Assembly (NCBI RefSeq): GCF_003946915.1
Contig: NZ_RPOC01000002.1
Coordinates: 248,001 to 312,000, forward strand
Length of the DNA stretch: 64,000 nt
Reading direction: 5' to 3'
DNA from: Flavobacterium ustbae
GTDB taxonomy: Bacteria > Bacteroidota > Bacteroidia > Flavobacteriales > Flavobacteriaceae
The translations under genes and the position numbers were made by a program. Positions 36,615 through 43,728 of the stretch are shown in pieces. How positions within the stretch are numbered: position 1 is the stretch's first letter; every line of letters starts with the position of its first letter. A model generated the notes under the pieces. The model searched no databases. It had not been told where the DNA came from and was given only the letters and a program-made list of their open reading frames with translations.

Positions 36615-37904
36615 TTACCCCAAGAACTCTTTCAACTCCTCATAAGTCTCAATCTTCACACTAACTTTCTCCTCATTAATAACACTCTCAATCTGTGTTG
36701 GAATCGGAAGCGTAATTCCTAGCGCTGGTTCAACAACGTCTAAGAATTTAATTGGGTGAGCGGTTTCTAAGAAAATACCAAGGGCATTAGGAAATTTTTC
36801 AAGCTCTTTTTTCAAACCTAAATAACCCACAGCGCCGTGAGGTTCTGCGATATAACCGTCGGTTTTGTAGATTTTCTTCATGGCTTCAAGAGTTTGTTCG
36901 TCTGTGTAGCTGTAAGAAGAGAAATCTTTTTCGAAAGCTTTTAAATCATTATTGTATAATTCCTGAATTCTAATAAAGTTACTTGGGTTTCCAACATCCA
37001 TTGCGTTAGAGATTGTTGCTTTAGAAGGTTTCGGGTCGTATTTTCCGTTTTCTAAGAATCTTGGTACGGTGTCGTTTACGTTTGTAGACGCTACAAAATG
37101 CTCAATTGGCAAACCTAATTTTTTTGCCATAATTCCGGCACAGATATTTCCGAAGTTTCCGCTTGGGCAAGAGAAAACCAATGGTTTGTTTTGGCTCTTC
37201 AACGCTTTGTAAGCAAAGAAGAAATAAAACATCTGTGGCAACCAGCGCGCAATATTAATAGAATTTGCCGAAGTCAGGTTTTTGTGCGCCAAAGTTTCGT
37301 CCAAAAACGCTTTTTTCACCATATCCTGGCAATCGTCAAAAACACCGTCAACTTCCAGTGCTTTAATGTTCTGCCCTAAAGTAGTCAATTGTTTTTCCTG
37401 AATATCGCTCACTTTTCCAGACGGATATAAAATGACAACATCTACGCCGTCAACACCCAGGAATCCGCTTGCAACGGCTCCGCCCGTATCGCCCGAAGTT
37501 GCTACTAAAACGGTATTTTTAGCGTCTTTTTTGTCTTTGTTGAAATAACCCAAACAGCGTGACATAAATCGCGCTCCAACGTCTTTAAAAGCCATTGTCG
37601 GTCCGTGGAATAATTCTAACGAATAGATTCCATCTTCGACTTTCACAACCGGGAAATCAAAAACCAAAGTTTCGGCAATGATTTCTTTTAGTTTTGCTTC
37701 TGGTATTTCGTCGCCTACGAATTGTTTAATCGCTTCAAAAGCAATTTCTTCGTGACTTAAACTTTCGATTTTATCAAAAAATGAAGGATCAAGTGGCGTA
37801 ATGCTTTCGGGGAAATATAATCCTTTGTCACTCGCTAATCCTTGTATTACAGCTTCCTGAAAAGAAACTTTTGGGGCATTATGGTTTAAACTGTAGTATT
37901 TCAT
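36615..37904 (-). CDS. thrC: Threonine synthase
   Basis: PLP enzyme that converts O-phosphohomoserine to threonine, the last step of the pathway. It is 429 residues. MKYYSLNHNAPKVSFQEAVIQGLASDKGLYFPE is the typical N-terminal domain, the PLP-Lys region is GPTMAFKDVGARFM (about residue 105), and VATSGDTGGAVASGF (about 137) binds substrate. It is the last gene of the thr operon, with a terminator right behind it. The spacer upstream (37905-38034) contains degenerate TTAGTCC/GGACTA repeats. Confidence 0.95.
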   Translation of the reverse strand: MKYYSLNHNAPKVSFQEAVIQGLASDKGLYFPESITPLDPSFFDKIESLSHEEIAFEAIKQFVGDEIPEAKLKEIIAETLVFDFPVVKVEDGIYSLELFHGPTMAFKDVGARFMSRCLGYFNKDKKDAKNTVLVATSGDTGGAVASGFLGVDGVDVVILYPSGKVSDIQEKQLTTLGQNIKALEVDGVFDDCQDMVKKAFLDETLAHKNLTSANSINIARWLPQMFYFFFAYKALKSQNKPLVFSCPSGNFGNICAGIMAKKLGLPIEHFVASTNVNDTVPRFLENGKYDPKPSKATISNAMDVGNPSNFIRIQELYNNDLKAFEKDFSSYSYTDEQTLEAMKKIYKTDGYIAEPHGAVGYLGLKKELEKFPNALGIFLETAHPIKFLDVVEPALGITLPIPTQIESVINEEKVSVKIETYEELKEFLG

Positions 37905-38034: not shown

Positions 38035-38955
38035 TTAAAGAATTCTTACACCGTCTGGATTAATCTTCGAAACGTGAATTTCATACGGTAAATTCATTTT
38101 TTCGTAAACTTCACTCATGGCTTTGGCGATTTGGTCGGCGGTGTTTTTTCCTCGGCTTAAAGCGAAAATCGACGGACCAGAACCTGAAATTCCAGAACCT
38201 AAAGCGCCGTTTTCGTAAGCGGTTTTTTTGATCTGGTCGAAACCTGGAATCAAAACACTTCTAAGAGGTTCAACGATTTCGTCATGAAGCGAACGTCCAA
38301 TTAATTCGTAATCTTTGGTATAAAGACCTGCGACAAGTCCGCCTACATTTCCCCATTGCGTGATGGCGCTTTTTAGGGAAACATTTTGTTTCAAAACCGA
38401 ACGAGCGTCAGAAGTTTTTAATTCAATCTGCGGATGAACCACCGTTGCGAATAATTCTTCCGGACTGTCGATTCTGATAATATCTAGCGGAGCATAACTT
38501 CTTACCAAAGTGAATCCGCCTAAAAGGGCAGGAGCAACGTTGTCGGCGTGCGCATTTCCGCTGGCTAGTTTTTCGCCCTGCATCGCAAATTGAACCAAAT
38601 CTTTACGAGAATATGGTCTTCCTAACAATTCGTTGATTCCGAAAACTGCTCCGGCAGAACTTGCCGCACTGCTTCCGATTCCGCTTCCAGCTTTTATATG
38701 TTTATAGATTTCGATTTCGAAACCAAAATCCAATTCATCCAAAGTCGCTAACATCGCTAAAGCCGCCACACCCGAAACATTTTTCTCGGTTTCAAGCGGT
38801 AAATCGGCACCAACGATTTTAGTAATACGAACGCCTTTCTGATCTGATTTTCGAACGATCATTTCATCACCCGCATTGTCTAAGCAAAGTCCCAAAACGT
38901 CAAATCCGCATGAGAGATTGGCGATAGTTGCAGGACAAAAAAGTTTTATTTCCAT
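38035..38955 (-). CDS. thrB: Homoserine kinase
   Basis: GHMP-family kinase that phosphorylates homoserine. The start is the ATG at 38955 (306 aa); an in-frame ATG at 38973 lies inside an intergenic repeat and adds only six residues. Features are CPATIANLSCGFDVLGLCLD at the front, the ATP loop AGSGIGSSAASSAGAV (about residue 91) and the C-terminal GSGISGSGPSIFAL. It is the middle gene of thrA-thrB-thrC. Confidence 0.94.
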   Translation of the reverse strand: MEIKLFCPATIANLSCGFDVLGLCLDNAGDEMIVRKSDQKGVRITKIVGADLPLETEKNVSGVAALAMLATLDELDFGFEIEIYKHIKAGSGIGSSAASSAGAVFGINELLGRPYSRKDLVQFAMQGEKLASGNAHADNVAPALLGGFTLVRSYAPLDIIRIDSPEELFATVVHPQIELKTSDARSVLKQNVSLKSAITQWGNVGGLVAGLYTKDYELIGRSLHDEIVEPLRSVLIPGFDQIKKTAYENGALGSGISGSGPSIFALSRGKNTADQIAKAMSEVYEKMNLPYEIHVSKINPDGVRIL

Positions 38956-39120: not shown

Positions 39121-41568
39121 TTACACATTCCCGATACGGATGACGTCAGCAAAAATTCCTGAAGCGGTAACGGCTGCACCGGCTCCGGCTCCTTTGATCA
39201 ATAAAGGCTGATCTACGTAACGATCGGTGTAGAAAAGCACGATATTGTCTTTTCCTTCTAAATTATAGAAAGGATGATCTTTTGGAATAAACTGAAGACC
39301 AACGCTTGCTTTTCCGTTTTCGAATTGCGCTACGTATTTCAATCTTGAATCTTTTGCTAAAGCTTCTTTATAAATGTTTTCAAAATGAGAAGCGTGTTTG
39401 ATTAACGAAGCAAAAAAGTCATCATTGTTTGTTGTTGCTAAACATTCAGCTGGTAAAAACGATTCGTTTGCAATAGCGTCAATATCCATTTCGTAACCGC
39501 TTTCGCGAATTAGAATCAGGATTTTACGTGCCACGTCAATTCCGCTTAAGTCGATTTTCGGATCTGGTTCTGTGAAACCTTGAACTCCCGCTTCTTTTAC
39601 GACATCGTGGAAAGAATTATTCTCGTCAAAATTGTTGAAAATAAAGTTCAAACTTCCCGATAAAACCGCTTGGATTTTATGCACTTTATCTCCAGATGCA
39701 ATCAGATTTTTTACAGTATCTATAATTGGCAATCCCGCACCAACATTCGTTTCAAATAAAAATGGAGCGTTGTATTGACGAGATAAGTTTTTCAATTTTT
39801 TATAATTGTCGTAAGCAGAAGAACACGCAATTTTGTTACAAGTTACAACGGCAATACTTTCTTTTAAGAATTTCTCGTAAGCTTCAGAAACTGTTGCGTT
39901 TGCAGTGATATCTACGAAAATGCTGTTACGTAAATTCAATTCTTTCGCTTTTTTGATGAATTGTTCAATACTTGCTGGTTCACCTTCGCTTAAAGCGGCA
40001 TCCCAATTTTTAAGAGAAATTCCGTCTTCATCAAAAATCATTTTTCTAGAGTTTGATAAAGCAATTACACGAACGTTAATTTTTAAAACTTCTTTTAAGA
40101 ATTTTCTCTGATTGTGAATCTGTTCGATGAATTTTTCACCGACATTTCCAACTCCCATTACAAATAAATTCAGCTGTTTAGTGTTTTCTTCAAAGAAATT
40201 TTCGTGTAAGGTATTCAACGCTTTTTTAACGTCTCTTTCGTTAATTACAGTCGAAATATTACGTTCAGAAGCTCCTTGCGCAATCGCACGAATGTTTACG
40301 TTGTTTTTTCCTAAAGTGCTGAACATTCTTCCGCTTAAACCTTGGTGATTTTTCATGTTTTCACCTACCAAAGCAATAATGCAAAGATCTTTTTCTACAT
40401 AACAAGGATCGATTTTGTTCTGCGAAATTTCGATTTCAAAAGCTTTGTTGATCGCAGCTTCGGCATTATCGGCATCAGAATTCAGGATTCCGATACAAAT
40501 TGAATGTTCAGAAGAAGCCTGAGTAATAAAAATTACGTTGATTTTTTCCTGAGATAATACTTCAAATAAACGTCTAGACGAACCCGCAACTCCAATCATT
40601 CCCGGACCTTCAAGTGTTACAAGCGAAATATGATCAATATGGCTAATTCCTTTTACAACAGTATCTTTTGATAAAACCACATCAGAAATTAAAGTTCCTT
40701 CTGCTTCTGGCTCAAAAGTATTTTTGATTAAAATCGGAATGTTTTTTCTTAAAACGGGCTGAATTGTGGGCGGATACAAAACTTTTGCTCCAAAGTGCGA
40801 CAATTCCATTGCCTCTTGGTAAGAGATATTTGCAATTGGCTGCGCTTGTTTTACAATTTTCGGGTTTGCCGTAAACATTCCGTTTACATCTGTCCAGATT
40901 TCCAATTGTTCTGCGTCGATTGCTCCAGCGATAATGGCAGCAGTATAATCAGATCCTCCACGTCCTAGGGTCGAAGTGATTCCGTCAATTGTCTGTGCAA
41001 TAAATCCAGGCAGGATATTGATTTTTGCTTTATTTTGAGCAAAGTATTCTTTAATCAGCTGATTTGAAACTTCGAAGTTTACAGCAGCTTTTCCGAAATT
41101 ATTATCCGTTTTTATTAATTCGCGGCTGTCTTTGTATACAGCCTCTTTTTCAGATTGCTGAAATGCCTGAGCGATAATGAATGAAGAAAGTAATTCTCCG
41201 AAACTTAAAATAGTATCAGCTGTTCTTGGAGACAATTCGCCTAAAAGAAAACAGCCGTCCAGTAAAGTTTCTAAATGGTTGATGATTCTTTTTACATGAC
41301 TTAAAAGACTGCTTTGCTCGCTCACCGGAATCAGTTCTTTTAAAGTATCAAGGTGTTTTTTCTCAATTTCGGCTACAACCTCTCTAAAGCTTTCGTCGTT
41401 TGCGGCTGCTTTTGCGGCTGCGGATTGCAATAAATCGGTTACTTTACTAAGAGCAGAAACAACAACGACCAATTGGTCTTGTTTTGCTTTTTGGTTAACA
41501 ATTTCGAGAACGAGTTTTATATTTTGAGCATTGGCTACAGAAGTTCCGCCAAATTTTAATACTTTCAT
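39121..41568 (-). CDS. thrA: Bifunctional aspartate kinase / homoserine dehydrogenase I
   Basis: An 815-residue fusion catalysing the first and third steps from aspartate to homoserine. The start is the ATG at 41568, which gives MKVLKFGGTSVANAQN. The kinase domain has KFGGTS and GRGGSDYTAAI (about residue 213). Two ACT regulatory domains lie at about 315-455, and the dehydrogenase domain starts near 460 with LFVMGVGNVGEKFI and includes GSLNFIFNNF. The ACT domains imply feedback by threonine. It is the first structural gene, preceded by a threonine-rich leader peptide. Confidence 0.95.
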   Translation of the reverse strand: MKVLKFGGTSVANAQNIKLVLEIVNQKAKQDQLVVVVSALSKVTDLLQSAAAKAAANDESFREVVAEIEKKHLDTLKELIPVSEQSSLLSHVKRIINHLETLLDGCFLLGELSPRTADTILSFGELLSSFIIAQAFQQSEKEAVYKDSRELIKTDNNFGKAAVNFEVSNQLIKEYFAQNKAKINILPGFIAQTIDGITSTLGRGGSDYTAAIIAGAIDAEQLEIWTDVNGMFTANPKIVKQAQPIANISYQEAMELSHFGAKVLYPPTIQPVLRKNIPILIKNTFEPEAEGTLISDVVLSKDTVVKGISHIDHISLVTLEGPGMIGVAGSSRRLFEVLSQEKINVIFITQASSEHSICIGILNSDADNAEAAINKAFEIEISQNKIDPCYVEKDLCIIALVGENMKNHQGLSGRMFSTLGKNNVNIRAIAQGASERNISTVINERDVKKALNTLHENFFEENTKQLNLFVMGVGNVGEKFIEQIHNQRKFLKEVLKINVRVIALSNSRKMIFDEDGISLKNWDAALSEGEPASIEQFIKKAKELNLRNSIFVDITANATVSEAYEKFLKESIAVVTCNKIACSSAYDNYKKLKNLSRQYNAPFLFETNVGAGLPIIDTVKNLIASGDKVHKIQAVLSGSLNFIFNNFDENNSFHDVVKEAGVQGFTEPDPKIDLSGIDVARKILILIRESGYEMDIDAIANESFLPAECLATTNNDDFFASLIKHASHFENIYKEALAKDSRLKYVAQFENGKASVGLQFIPKDHPFYNLEGKDNIVLFYTDRYVDQPLLIKGAGAGAAVTASGIFADVIRIGNV

Positions 41569-41755
41569 TTTATTTTTTCTTAGGTGTAAAGGTTCTGAGT
41601 TGCTAAGGTTCAAAGATTATAGACTGTGAACTGAAACTGAAAACGGTTACTATTGTTTTTTTTTCTTTTTGTAAATGTTTTCTATGTATCCATTAACTTT
41701 CTTCTTTTGCGAAAAAAGTATAGACAACCTGGATTATATGTAAAAATGTATACCC

Positions 41756-41860
41756 CTAAGGGGTAGTAGTTGTTGTAGTAGAAATAATGGTAGCAGCAAT
41801 TGCAACTCGTGTTTGAGCTGTAATAATTGTAGAATGATATTTTATGCTGTTACTTTTCAT
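41756..41860 (-). CDS. thrL: Threonine operon leader peptide
   Basis: A 34-residue frame, ATG at 41860 to TAG at 41758-41756, reading MKSNSIKYHSTIITAQTRVA then IAATIISTTTTTTP. It has ten Thr (six consecutive near the end) and six Ile codons, closely resembling the logic of the E. coli thr leader. It lies 187 nt before thrA on the same strand. Ribosome stalling at the Thr run when charged tRNA-Thr is scarce would change folding of the following RNA. I could not identify one unambiguous terminator in 41569-41755; a weak GTATA/TATAC stem followed by TTTTTT at about 41715-41756 is the best candidate. Confidence 0.85.
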   Translation of the reverse strand: MKSNSIKYHSTIITAQTRVAIAATIISTTTTTTP

Positions 41861-41871
41861 TTTTGATTTTT

Positions 41872-41879
41872 CAAAAGTA
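41872..41879 (-). promoter_or_regulatory. Putative -7 element of the thr operon
   Basis: TACTTTTG on the minus strand fits TAnnTTTG. It lies only 12 nt before the leader ATG, which would make the transcript almost leaderless. Confidence 0.5.
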
Positions 41880-42213
41880 CAGCTTTTTATAAGAGTTAAA
41901 AACTTGAAAAGCTTTTTTACGAATATTTTAATAATTCAAATCTGCGTAATTTAATATTGAGCATTTGTTAAAAGAGGATATGTTAAATTGATGTTTTGAT
42001 ATATTTTGGAATGTAGTTTTTAAAGATTTAATCCGTTCAAAAGACTGAATTTTAATTCAAAATGATCTAAAAATGGAACGAAAGACAAAGTTTTAGTTCA
42101 AAAAGAAATTTAAAGTATTTAAATGGCTTTTGTTAAAATCTTAATTATTGTGATAATTTTTTGCTTTTTAATATTGATTTGTTGAATTTTGGCGTTTAAA
42201 ATTTCAAATCATC
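41880..42213. other. Divergent spacer thr operon-ammonia-lyase
   Basis: AT-rich and without a gene; it carries the divergent promoters. Confidence 0.6.
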
Positions 42214-43728
42214 ATGAGAGAGATCCATTATATAAGTTCAGAAACTATTACTTTAGAAACCTTACAAGAAATTCTAAGTCAGAATAAAATATTAGAATTG
42301 TCTGAAGAGGCTAAAGTCAATGTTCAGAAATGCCGTGATTATTTAGATAAAAAAATGGCATCGCACACAGCGCCAATTTATGGAATCAATACTGGTTTTG
42401 GCTCTTTGTATAGTGTGAAAATCTCTAATGAAAATTTATCTAAACTTCAGGAAAATTTAGTTAAATCACACGCTTGCGGAACAGGAGAAGAAGTTCCAGC
42501 TGAGATTGTGAAAATGATGCTTTTGCTGAAAATCCAATCTTTAAGTTATGGACATTCTGGCATTCAGTTACAAACACTGGAGCGTTTAGTTGACTTTTAT
42601 AATAATGATATTCTGCCTATTATTTATACGCAAGGTTCACTTGGAGCTTCTGGAGATTTAGCTCCTTTGGCACATTTGTCTTTGCCATTAATAGGTGAAG
42701 GAATTGTACTTTTTGAAGGAAAAAAAGTAGCTTCTGCCGAAGTTTTAGAACATTTTAACTGGGAACCAATCGTTTTGCAGTCAAAAGAAGGTTTGGCTTT
42801 ATTAAACGGAACGCAGTTTATGAGTGCTTATGGAGCGCATATTTTAATTAAAGCTTACAAATATTCGTATCTAGCCGATTTAATCGGAACTATTTCGTTG
42901 GAAGGATTTGACGGAAGAATCGAACCTTTTAATGAATTGATCCATTATATTCGTCCGCACAAAGGGCAAATCGTAACCGCACAACGCATTACTGAATTTT
43001 TGGACGGAAGCGAAATTATCACTCAAGAAAAGAAACACGTACAAGATCCGTATTCTTTCCGTTGTATGCCGCAAGTTCATGGCGCTTCAAAAGACGCCAT
43101 TGATTATGTTCGAAAAGTTTTCAAAACAGAAATCAATTCGGTTACCGATAATCCTAATATTTTTATTGAAGCCGATCAGATTATTTCTGGAGGAAATTTC
43201 CACGGACAGCCTTTGGCTTTAGCGCTTGATTTTATGGCAATTGCTTTGGCAGAATTAGGAAGCATTTCTGAAAGAAGAACGTATCAATTAATTTCAGGAT
43301 TGCGTAATCTTCCTGCCTTTTTAGTAGATAATCCAGGATTGAATTCAGGATTTATGATTCCGCAATACACAGCGGCAAGTATCGCAAGTCAGAACAAGCA
43401 ATTGGCAACTCCGGCAAGTATTGATAGTATTGTCTCTAGCAACGGCCAAGAAGACCATGTAAGCATGGGAGCAAACGGTGCTACAAAAGCCTTACGAATT
43501 TTAGACAATTTAGAACGTATTTTGGCAATAGAATTATTAAATGCGTCACAGGCAATTGCATATAGAGAGCCACTAAAATCGAGCGATTTTATCGAAATGT
43601 TCTTGAATAGCTACAGAGAAATCGTGCCTTTGGTAAAAGAAGATAGAATCTTACATAATGACATAGAAAATACGGTTTTATTTTTAAAGAGTTTTCAAAT
43701 TGAAAACGATTTGTTAACAATGGCTTAA
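42214..43728 (+). CDS. hutH: Histidine/aromatic amino acid ammonia-lyase
   Basis: A 504-residue MIO-dependent lyase that removes ammonia from histidine to give urocanate. The self-cyclising triad Ala-Ser-Gly is in LGASGDLAPLAHLSLP (about residue 145). YGINTGFGSL (about 53) carries the catalytic Tyr, and SHACGTGE (about 83) has the His found in histidine-selective enzymes. No hutU, hutI or hutG is adjacent. A tyrosine ammonia-lyase role, as in flexirubin-type pigment clusters, cannot be excluded from sequence. Confidence 0.85.
   Translation: MREIHYISSETITLETLQEILSQNKILELSEEAKVNVQKCRDYLDKKMASHTAPIYGINTGFGSLYSVKISNENLSKLQENLVKSHACGTGEEVPAEIVKMMLLLKIQSLSYGHSGIQLQTLERLVDFYNNDILPIIYTQGSLGASGDLAPLAHLSLPLIGEGIVLFEGKKVASAEVLEHFNWEPIVLQSKEGLALLNGTQFMSAYGAHILIKAYKYSYLADLIGTISLEGFDGRIEPFNELIHYIRPHKGQIVTAQRITEFLDGSEIITQEKKHVQDPYSFRCMPQVHGASKDAIDYVRKVFKTEINSVTDNPNIFIEADQIISGGNFHGQPLALALDFMAIALAELGSISERRTYQLISGLRNLPAFLVDNPGLNSGFMIPQYTAASIASQNKQLATPASIDSIVSSNGQEDHVSMGANGATKALRILDNLERILAIELLNASQAIAYREPLKSSDFIEMFLNSYREIVPLVKEDRILHNDIENTVLFLKSFQIENDLLTMA

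Follow-up and report, generated by a model that had tools for sequence, protein, structure and literature searches.

The window is a stretch of 64,000 nucleotides from Flavobacterium ustbae (assembly GCF_003946915.1, contig NZ_RPOC01000002.1, positions 248,001 to 312,000). Its minus strand carries the threonine operon thrABC, whose three genes are identified by NCBIfam equivalog models, preceded by a short leader open reading frame (ORF) that encodes the peptide MKSNSIKYHSTIITAQTRVAIAATIISTTTTTTP and ends at a TAG stop codon (Table 1). This frame is as the earlier note had described it: ten of the 34 codons encode Thr (codons 28–33 forming an unbroken TTTTTT) and six encode Ile, and the leader stop lies 187 nt upstream of the thrA ATG (41568) on the same strand. 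The listed thrA frame extends back to a TTG at 41613. The divergent neighbour of the leader, at 42214 on the plus strand, is histidine ammonia-lyase.

Table 1. Features of the thr leader region and operon, in window coordinates
Feature	Position	Strand	Remarks
TACTTTTG box	41872..41879	-	matches the flavobacterial sigma-A -7 box TAnnTTTG; 11 nt before leader ATG
thr leader peptide ORF	41756..41860	-	34 codons
Hairpin A (predicted), CAGCTC-AAACAC-GAGTTG	41803..41820	-	inside leader ORF, before the Thr/Ile run; RNAalifold consensus
Run of six Thr codons (28–33)	41762..41779	-	final codon ACC is the 5' base of hairpin B
Hairpin B (predicted), TACCCC-TTA-GGGGTA	41751..41765	-	starts at last Thr codon, contains leader stop codon
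Candidate helix D, GGGGTATA with TATAATCC	41731..41756	-	mutually exclusive with hairpin B
Conserved motif CATATAATCC (wider form ATATNNTCC)	41731..41740	-	11–13 nt after hairpin B
Hairpin C (predicted), AU-rich	41687..41726	-	no U-tract after it
Extra spacer of about 80 nt, CTTTGAACCTTAGCAACTCAGAAC...	41580..41655 (approximate, by eye)	-	between hairpin C and thrA
thrA, bifunctional aspartate kinase/homoserine dehydrogenase I	39121..41568	-	NCBIfam equivalog
thrB, homoserine kinase	38035..38955	-	NCBIfam equivalog
thrC, threonine synthase	36615..37904	-	NCBIfam equivalog

PMC9723704 gives TAnnTTTG as the -7 box of flavobacterial sigma-A promoters. Because the TACTTTTG box stands so close to the leader ATG, the leader would start only a few bases into the transcript. 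A riboswitch or other known RNA family was dismissed for want of an Rfam match: a scan of the window returned no family at gathering score, and an E-value search of 41560–41960 returned five weak matches (E 6.3 to 9.2), none of them the thr leader.

Elsewhere in the genome, contig C57:14649-20328 carries a second aspartokinase–homoserine dehydrogenase, 37% identical to ThrA, and a separate homoserine dehydrogenase. In the stretches inspected, no Thr-type leader was seen before them.

Conservation and coding signal of the leader

Genus loci were collected by a ThrA search of 101 Flavobacterium genomes, that of F. ustbae included: 70 had a match at E up to 1e-200, and the other 31 lie outside the set. 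The regions before thrA taken from 60 of the 69 matching relatives, together with the window, make up 61 loci, found by ThrA alone, independent of the Thr/Ile run. The promoter box and a CCCC/GGGG hairpin at the expected distance occur in 56 of them. The leader element was not found in L048, L049, L056 and L063 (genomes G095, G001, G068 and G016), and L064 has, by eye, a Thr-rich leader with a different hairpin; the element is therefore dispensable in some lineages. L048 has a TACTTTTG box beginning 28 nt upstream of thrA, which would suit a loss of the leader.

Within named Flavobacterium loci (80), the strict leader pattern is found in 74, with 59 distinct peptides, and a hairpin stands at the leader end in all 80. 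The strict pattern recognizes all four features in 61 loci; of the 19 that fall short, 12 deviate in the exact spelling of the motif, 6 in the leader pattern and 1 in the distance to the box. L179 (F. johnsoniae CI04) is altered at the usual TAG, and its leader frame continues past hairpin B. Alignment of the regions upstream of relatives' thrA genes, which the earlier note had proposed as a check, reveals a Thr-rich frame that is kept while its sequence drifts.

Beyond the genus, a first covariance model (R1) matches 26 of 397 family genomes and 8 of 395 class genomes, and all 27 R1 loci inspected (L088–L114) precede a thrA-like start. A wider model of the leader end (R2; 65 positions, 48 sequences) describes the Thr/Ile run, hairpin B and the motif, and holds no thrA sequence. 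At E up to 0.01, R2 matches 99 of 397 family genomes (67 of 237 genera, one match per genome) and 16 of 395 class genomes, three other families among them; these counts include the genomes used to build the model, and the strict search filters drop weak matches, so genomes without a match may still hold the element. All 52 R2 matches checked precede a thrA-like start: 40 of the 69 family matches that were not yet loci, and 12 loci from the class search (L229–L240, of which L230–L233 lie in genomes already found by R1).

The pooled comparison starts from 140 loci: 61 from the genus, 27 from R1 (including two further genus members) and 52 from R2. Six were removed beforehand, as genomes already present or extra genus members (L111, L112 and L230–L233), and seven (L023, L048, L049, L056, L063, L064 and L288) failed the pattern, which consists of an AC..CC/GGG hairpin and [AT]TAT 6–20 nt after it. 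By eye, L023 and L288 hold the element with an altered motif. The remaining 127 regions have common ancestry, and counts over them are therefore not independent observations.

In all 127 regions, the frame ending at hairpin B stays open over a minimum of 20 codons; the other two frames do so in 45 and 88. Over the last 12 codons, the Thr+Ile fraction is 0.61 in the Thr frame vs 0.03 in each other frame (127 regions), a codon content that is not fully independent for regions found by R1 and R2, because these models include the Thr/Ile run. A promoter box with an in-frame start is found in 119 of the 127 (110 ATG, 7 GTG and 2 TTG), at a median spacing of 11 nt. Leader stops are TAA (70) or TAG (57), both of which are read by release factor 1; TGA is absent among the 127 stop codons counted. 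Relative to the end of the 3' arm of hairpin B, the stop falls anywhere from 8 nt upstream to 5 nt downstream in 122 of the 127.

A fortuitous or merely structural ORF without a regulatory role is extremely improbable. Such an ORF is compatible with a regulatory role that is a prediction from sequence, but frame, codon content and position before thrA are conserved across the family and beyond. The leader in 74 of the 80 named loci, and the open frame in all 127 regions, led to a chance ORF being dismissed. Very probably, the threonine-rich leader is used to sense the threonine supply.

Hairpins, conserved motif and spacing to thrA

The leader RNA is predicted to fold into three hairpins. For each of the six pairs of hairpin A (RNAalifold, 49 sequences), at least one sequence is changed on both sides with pairing kept. 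Hairpin B forms a perfect 4–5 bp stem in 96 of 100 R2 matches (by script). Its near-invariant pairs give no covariation above shuffles; the core pairs hardly vary and therefore say little by covariation. Fold z-scores against shuffles, computed for 80 of 88 loci, average -1.79 for the hairpin A region and -2.02 for the hairpin C region in 53 genus loci, and -1.44 and -1.74 in 27 R1-found loci; control windows, which do not fold better than shuffles, give 0.06 and -0.05 upstream, and 0.75 and -0.11 downstream. The whole 302-nt leader of the window has a fold z of -3.8.

The motif follows hairpin B at a narrow distance: 11–13 nt separate the last G of the hairpin from ATAT in 120 of the 127 regions, within a range of possible distances that the pattern had already limited to 6–20 nt. 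Within ATAT, the T, A and T are found in all 127 regions and the first A in 126; the TCC positions hold T 111 times, C 88 times and C 105 times. ATAT is preceded by a pyrimidine in 124 of the 127 (C in 88, T in 36). The invariance of [AT]TAT and AC..CC/GGG is partly by construction, because the pattern demanded these letters. The ATA of the motif is also invariant in alignment A1, whose 49 sequences (of 56 available blocks) were chosen by hairpin and promoter box only.

In the genome, WCATATAATCC has 10 copies vs 4 for a reversed control pattern, and GGGG plus the motif occurs a single time. A regulon-wide site was considered and dismissed, just one of the 10 genome copies lying, by eye, in such a leader.

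Helix D can pair in 94% (49 sequences) and 82% (48 sequences) of cells, and when CCCC is blocked, the predicted folds of the window and of several of the 14 sequences tried switch to it. This behaviour could be accommodated by a classical three-way switch, in which B would be the 1:2 helix, D (GGGGUAUA with UAUANNUCC) the 2:3 antiterminator, and a 3:4 helix past C the terminator; the direction of control would fit as well. However, D shows no covariation above shuffles, and the 3:4 helix tried (TATAATCC with GGATACATA after hairpin C) is paired in 74% of cells, equal to shuffles, in an alignment that is uncertain beyond the motif in distant sequences. Moreover, 123 of the 127 regions are without a terminator-like site after B. 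The three-way switch is considered unlikely.

Spacing to thrA varies widely. From hairpin B to thrA, the distance ranges from 66 to 279 nt across the 127 regions. In the 80 named loci, the distance from the leader stop to the ThrA match is roughly 180–190 nt in 37 and 100–110 nt in 28; the thrA query began one residue early (41571, not 41568), which is why residue 2 is the first one aligned in many matches. Some Flavobacterium species have the extra spacer of about 80 nt and many close relatives do not, a pattern that would suit gain or loss of an intergenic repeat; a 24-base piece of it has one occurrence in the window.

Leader translation could also act without early termination, altering the 5' fold or the stability of the mRNA and hence thrA translation. 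The absence of a standard terminator would suit such translational control or mRNA decay, as would the near-constant position of hairpin C 38–41 nt before the thrA ATG in many (untallied) of the 79 distant loci listed. Nevertheless, the extra spacer argues against control dependent on the thrA start: with some 80 nt or more added to the distance to thrA in many species, F. ustbae included, no fixed link appears to be required. Control at this level is very unlikely.

Missing terminator and the his and ilv leaders

In textbook leader-peptide attenuation, a stalled ribosome is set against a U-tract terminator. The E. coli example, thrL, is a short Thr/Ile-rich ORF after the promoter and before thrABC, followed by a GC-rich terminator with a U-tract; its Rfam family is named Thr_leader. 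The flavobacterial leader shares the placement of the Thr/Ile ORF before thrABC, and the position of the ribosome presumably selects the RNA fold in both. Compared with these features of the E. coli attenuator, it lacks the GC-rich terminator with U-tract and any Rfam match; its hairpin B begins with the final Thr codon and includes the stop codon or lies next to it, and ATATNNTCC is an additional element. Among the defining features of a ribosome-mediated attenuator, a short ORF of regulatory codons lies between promoter and operon, and the amino acid of the run matches the operon product; an intrinsic terminator between the leader and the first gene is missing.

The view of the earlier note that no textbook GC-rich terminator follows the leader proves to hold widely: a terminator-like site after hairpin B is found in 4 of the 127 thr leaders (shuffle mean 1.0), and a relaxed AU rule gives 7 vs 6.4 in shuffles. 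Hairpin C was rejected as an intrinsic terminator: its 10-nt tails average 3.2 T and 4.2 A, with at least five T in 20 of 70, these being the loci with a hairpin called among 79 distant loci, in some of which the best hairpin is not C.

Hairpin B is the sole terminator candidate, and a weak one. It might act as a plain weak intrinsic terminator that is covered by the stalled ribosome, with no further element required. The terminator scan of the window flags TACCCCTTAGGGGTA with TACATTTTTA (hairpin B and the bases that follow it), the loose terminator rule is passed in 39 of 56 genus loci and 57 of the 127 regions, the window included, and T is favoured 7–10 nt after the G run of B (31–33 of 48 sequences). 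On the other hand, B lacks a good U-tract and fails even this loose rule in 70 of the 127 regions, and its values on a standard terminator scale, the d-score (median -16.7, 10 of 75 above 0; 75 of 88 loci, 13 failing the pattern) lie far below those of the his leaders (median +37, 30 of 30 above 0) and the ilv leader (+23.5, own genome only), with hairpin limits optimized for thr and his, not ilv. This reading also leaves the conserved ATATNNTCC and hairpin C unexplained, and it is judged improbable. The suggestion in the earlier note of a weak stem before TTTTTT agrees with hairpin B of the window, which precedes TACATTTTTA, but is limited by the 57 of 127 regions and the low d-scores.

The his and ilv leaders of the same genome likewise encode leader peptides with runs of the cognate amino acids, before hisG and ilvD. 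The his leader MISIQLHHHHLHYCSQAMC (L082, contig C44, about 790–910) is followed by a 13 bp terminator, AAAACCCGTTTGAGTACATCAAACGGGTTTT and a T-run, and a his leader with its terminator was found in 30 of the 30 genus genomes tested. The ilv leader MQISIIITSVVVVNVVHTSASGML (L084, contig C44) has the terminator AAACCTTCCAAATACTGGAAGGTTT with a T-run before ilvD. Both possess a textbook intrinsic terminator, whereas the thr leader has none.

In tnaC, a stalled ribosome shields the RNA from Rho, and a stalled ribosome that shields the RNA is a possible read-out shared with the thr leader. By analogy, the stalled ribosome could protect the C-rich, G-poor leader RNA, and Rho would otherwise terminate the paused polymerase farther downstream. 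This proposal agrees with the missing intrinsic terminator and with an ACN codon run that is C-rich and G-poor, but such richness follows from the codons of any Thr-rich ORF, and the model does not require the tight placement of B and the motif. Rho acting in this way seems quite unlikely, even with the precedent of E. coli topAI, where a regulatory upstream ORF is described as modulating premature Rho-dependent termination (PMC12121999).

Proposed control of thrABC and its significance

About an even chance is given to the reading in which thrABC is under a ribosome-controlled attenuator whose hairpin B acts on the polymerase at the ATATNNTCC element. What the sequences themselves show is a conserved ORF with its characteristic codons, the promoter box, three hairpins as predicted folds, the tight spacing and the absence of a standard terminator. 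From these features we infer a threonine response, a stall, a pause and a release step; control of thrABC would be exerted by stalling at the Thr/Ile run.

Transcription would start a few bases upstream of the leader ORF, and the ribosome would translate through hairpin A and enter the Thr/Ile codons. When charged tRNA-Thr (or tRNA-Ile) is scarce, the ribosome would stall with its front edge over the 5' arm of B; hairpin B would be blocked, and the polymerase would continue into thrABC. When threonine is plentiful, the ribosome would run on to the stop codon, within B or immediately behind it, and depart. Hairpin B could then fold right behind a polymerase whose RNA end is near ATATNNTCC, 11–13 nt downstream; the polymerase would pause there and be released before thrA, either unaided at the weak hairpin B or with the help of Rho.

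The geometry is compatible with such a sequence of events. A ribosome footprint reaches about 12 nt past the first nucleotide of the A site. Placed where the regulatory codons end, hairpin B would therefore be unable to coexist with a ribosome on the last four Thr codons. The narrow distance between B and the motif suggests that the motif is read with the polymerase over it or just before it. In a his-type pause hairpin, about 11 nt separate the hairpin from the paused RNA end. The predicted hairpin B lies 11–12 nt behind the pyrimidine that precedes ATAT, so that its 11–13 nt to ATAT resembles the his-type arrangement in spacing, the one property compared. Because the gap between B and thrA is so variable, the module would need no fixed distance to thrA.

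Several points count against this reading. Stalled on an early Thr codon (11, 14 or 17), a ribosome would stop short of B, and occlusion alone would therefore be leaky. B would likewise be covered by a ribosome that trails the polymerase closely or lingers at the stop codon, so the predicted direction of control is less secure. The poor U-tract of B, the pairs of B and helix D without covariation above shuffles, and the genus loci in which the element was not found weigh in the same sense.

Leader-peptide attenuation in flavobacteria has already been suggested in print. For F. psychrophilum, a member of the same genus, the main text of PMC9723704 reports strong clues for attenuation by leader peptides before amino-acid operons; the term thrA is absent from that main text, and a thr entry is possible in its supplementary tables. 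In Bacteroides thetaiotaomicron, short ORFs reminiscent of attenuator leaders are mentioned (PMC7366714). A literature search that covered few subscription journals gave no apparent paper on a thr leader in Bacteroidota among the matches listed. The study of Lopatovskaya et al. 2010 (Mol Biol 44:128) may contain such leader predictions. What appears to be new is the anatomy: a threonine leader that is conserved in several families, without a standard terminator and with a hairpin–spacer–motif unit.

A more specific proposal is possible, if rather doubtful: a Bacteroidota threonine attenuator without a terminator, in which a ribosome-governed hairpin B at the end of the regulatory codons would pause and release the polymerase at the fixed downstream element ATATNNTCC, in place of a U-tract terminator. 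If true, it would represent a distinct mechanistic class beside classical attenuation, common to several families of the class. The thr leader keeps the codon sensor without the standard output signal, although the his and ilv attenuators of the same genome have that signal. Searches built on terminators would tend to overlook such leaders. Bacteroidota hardly use Shine-Dalgarno sequences, and in this phylum the thr leader offers a compact, testable element for the study of transcription–translation coupling.
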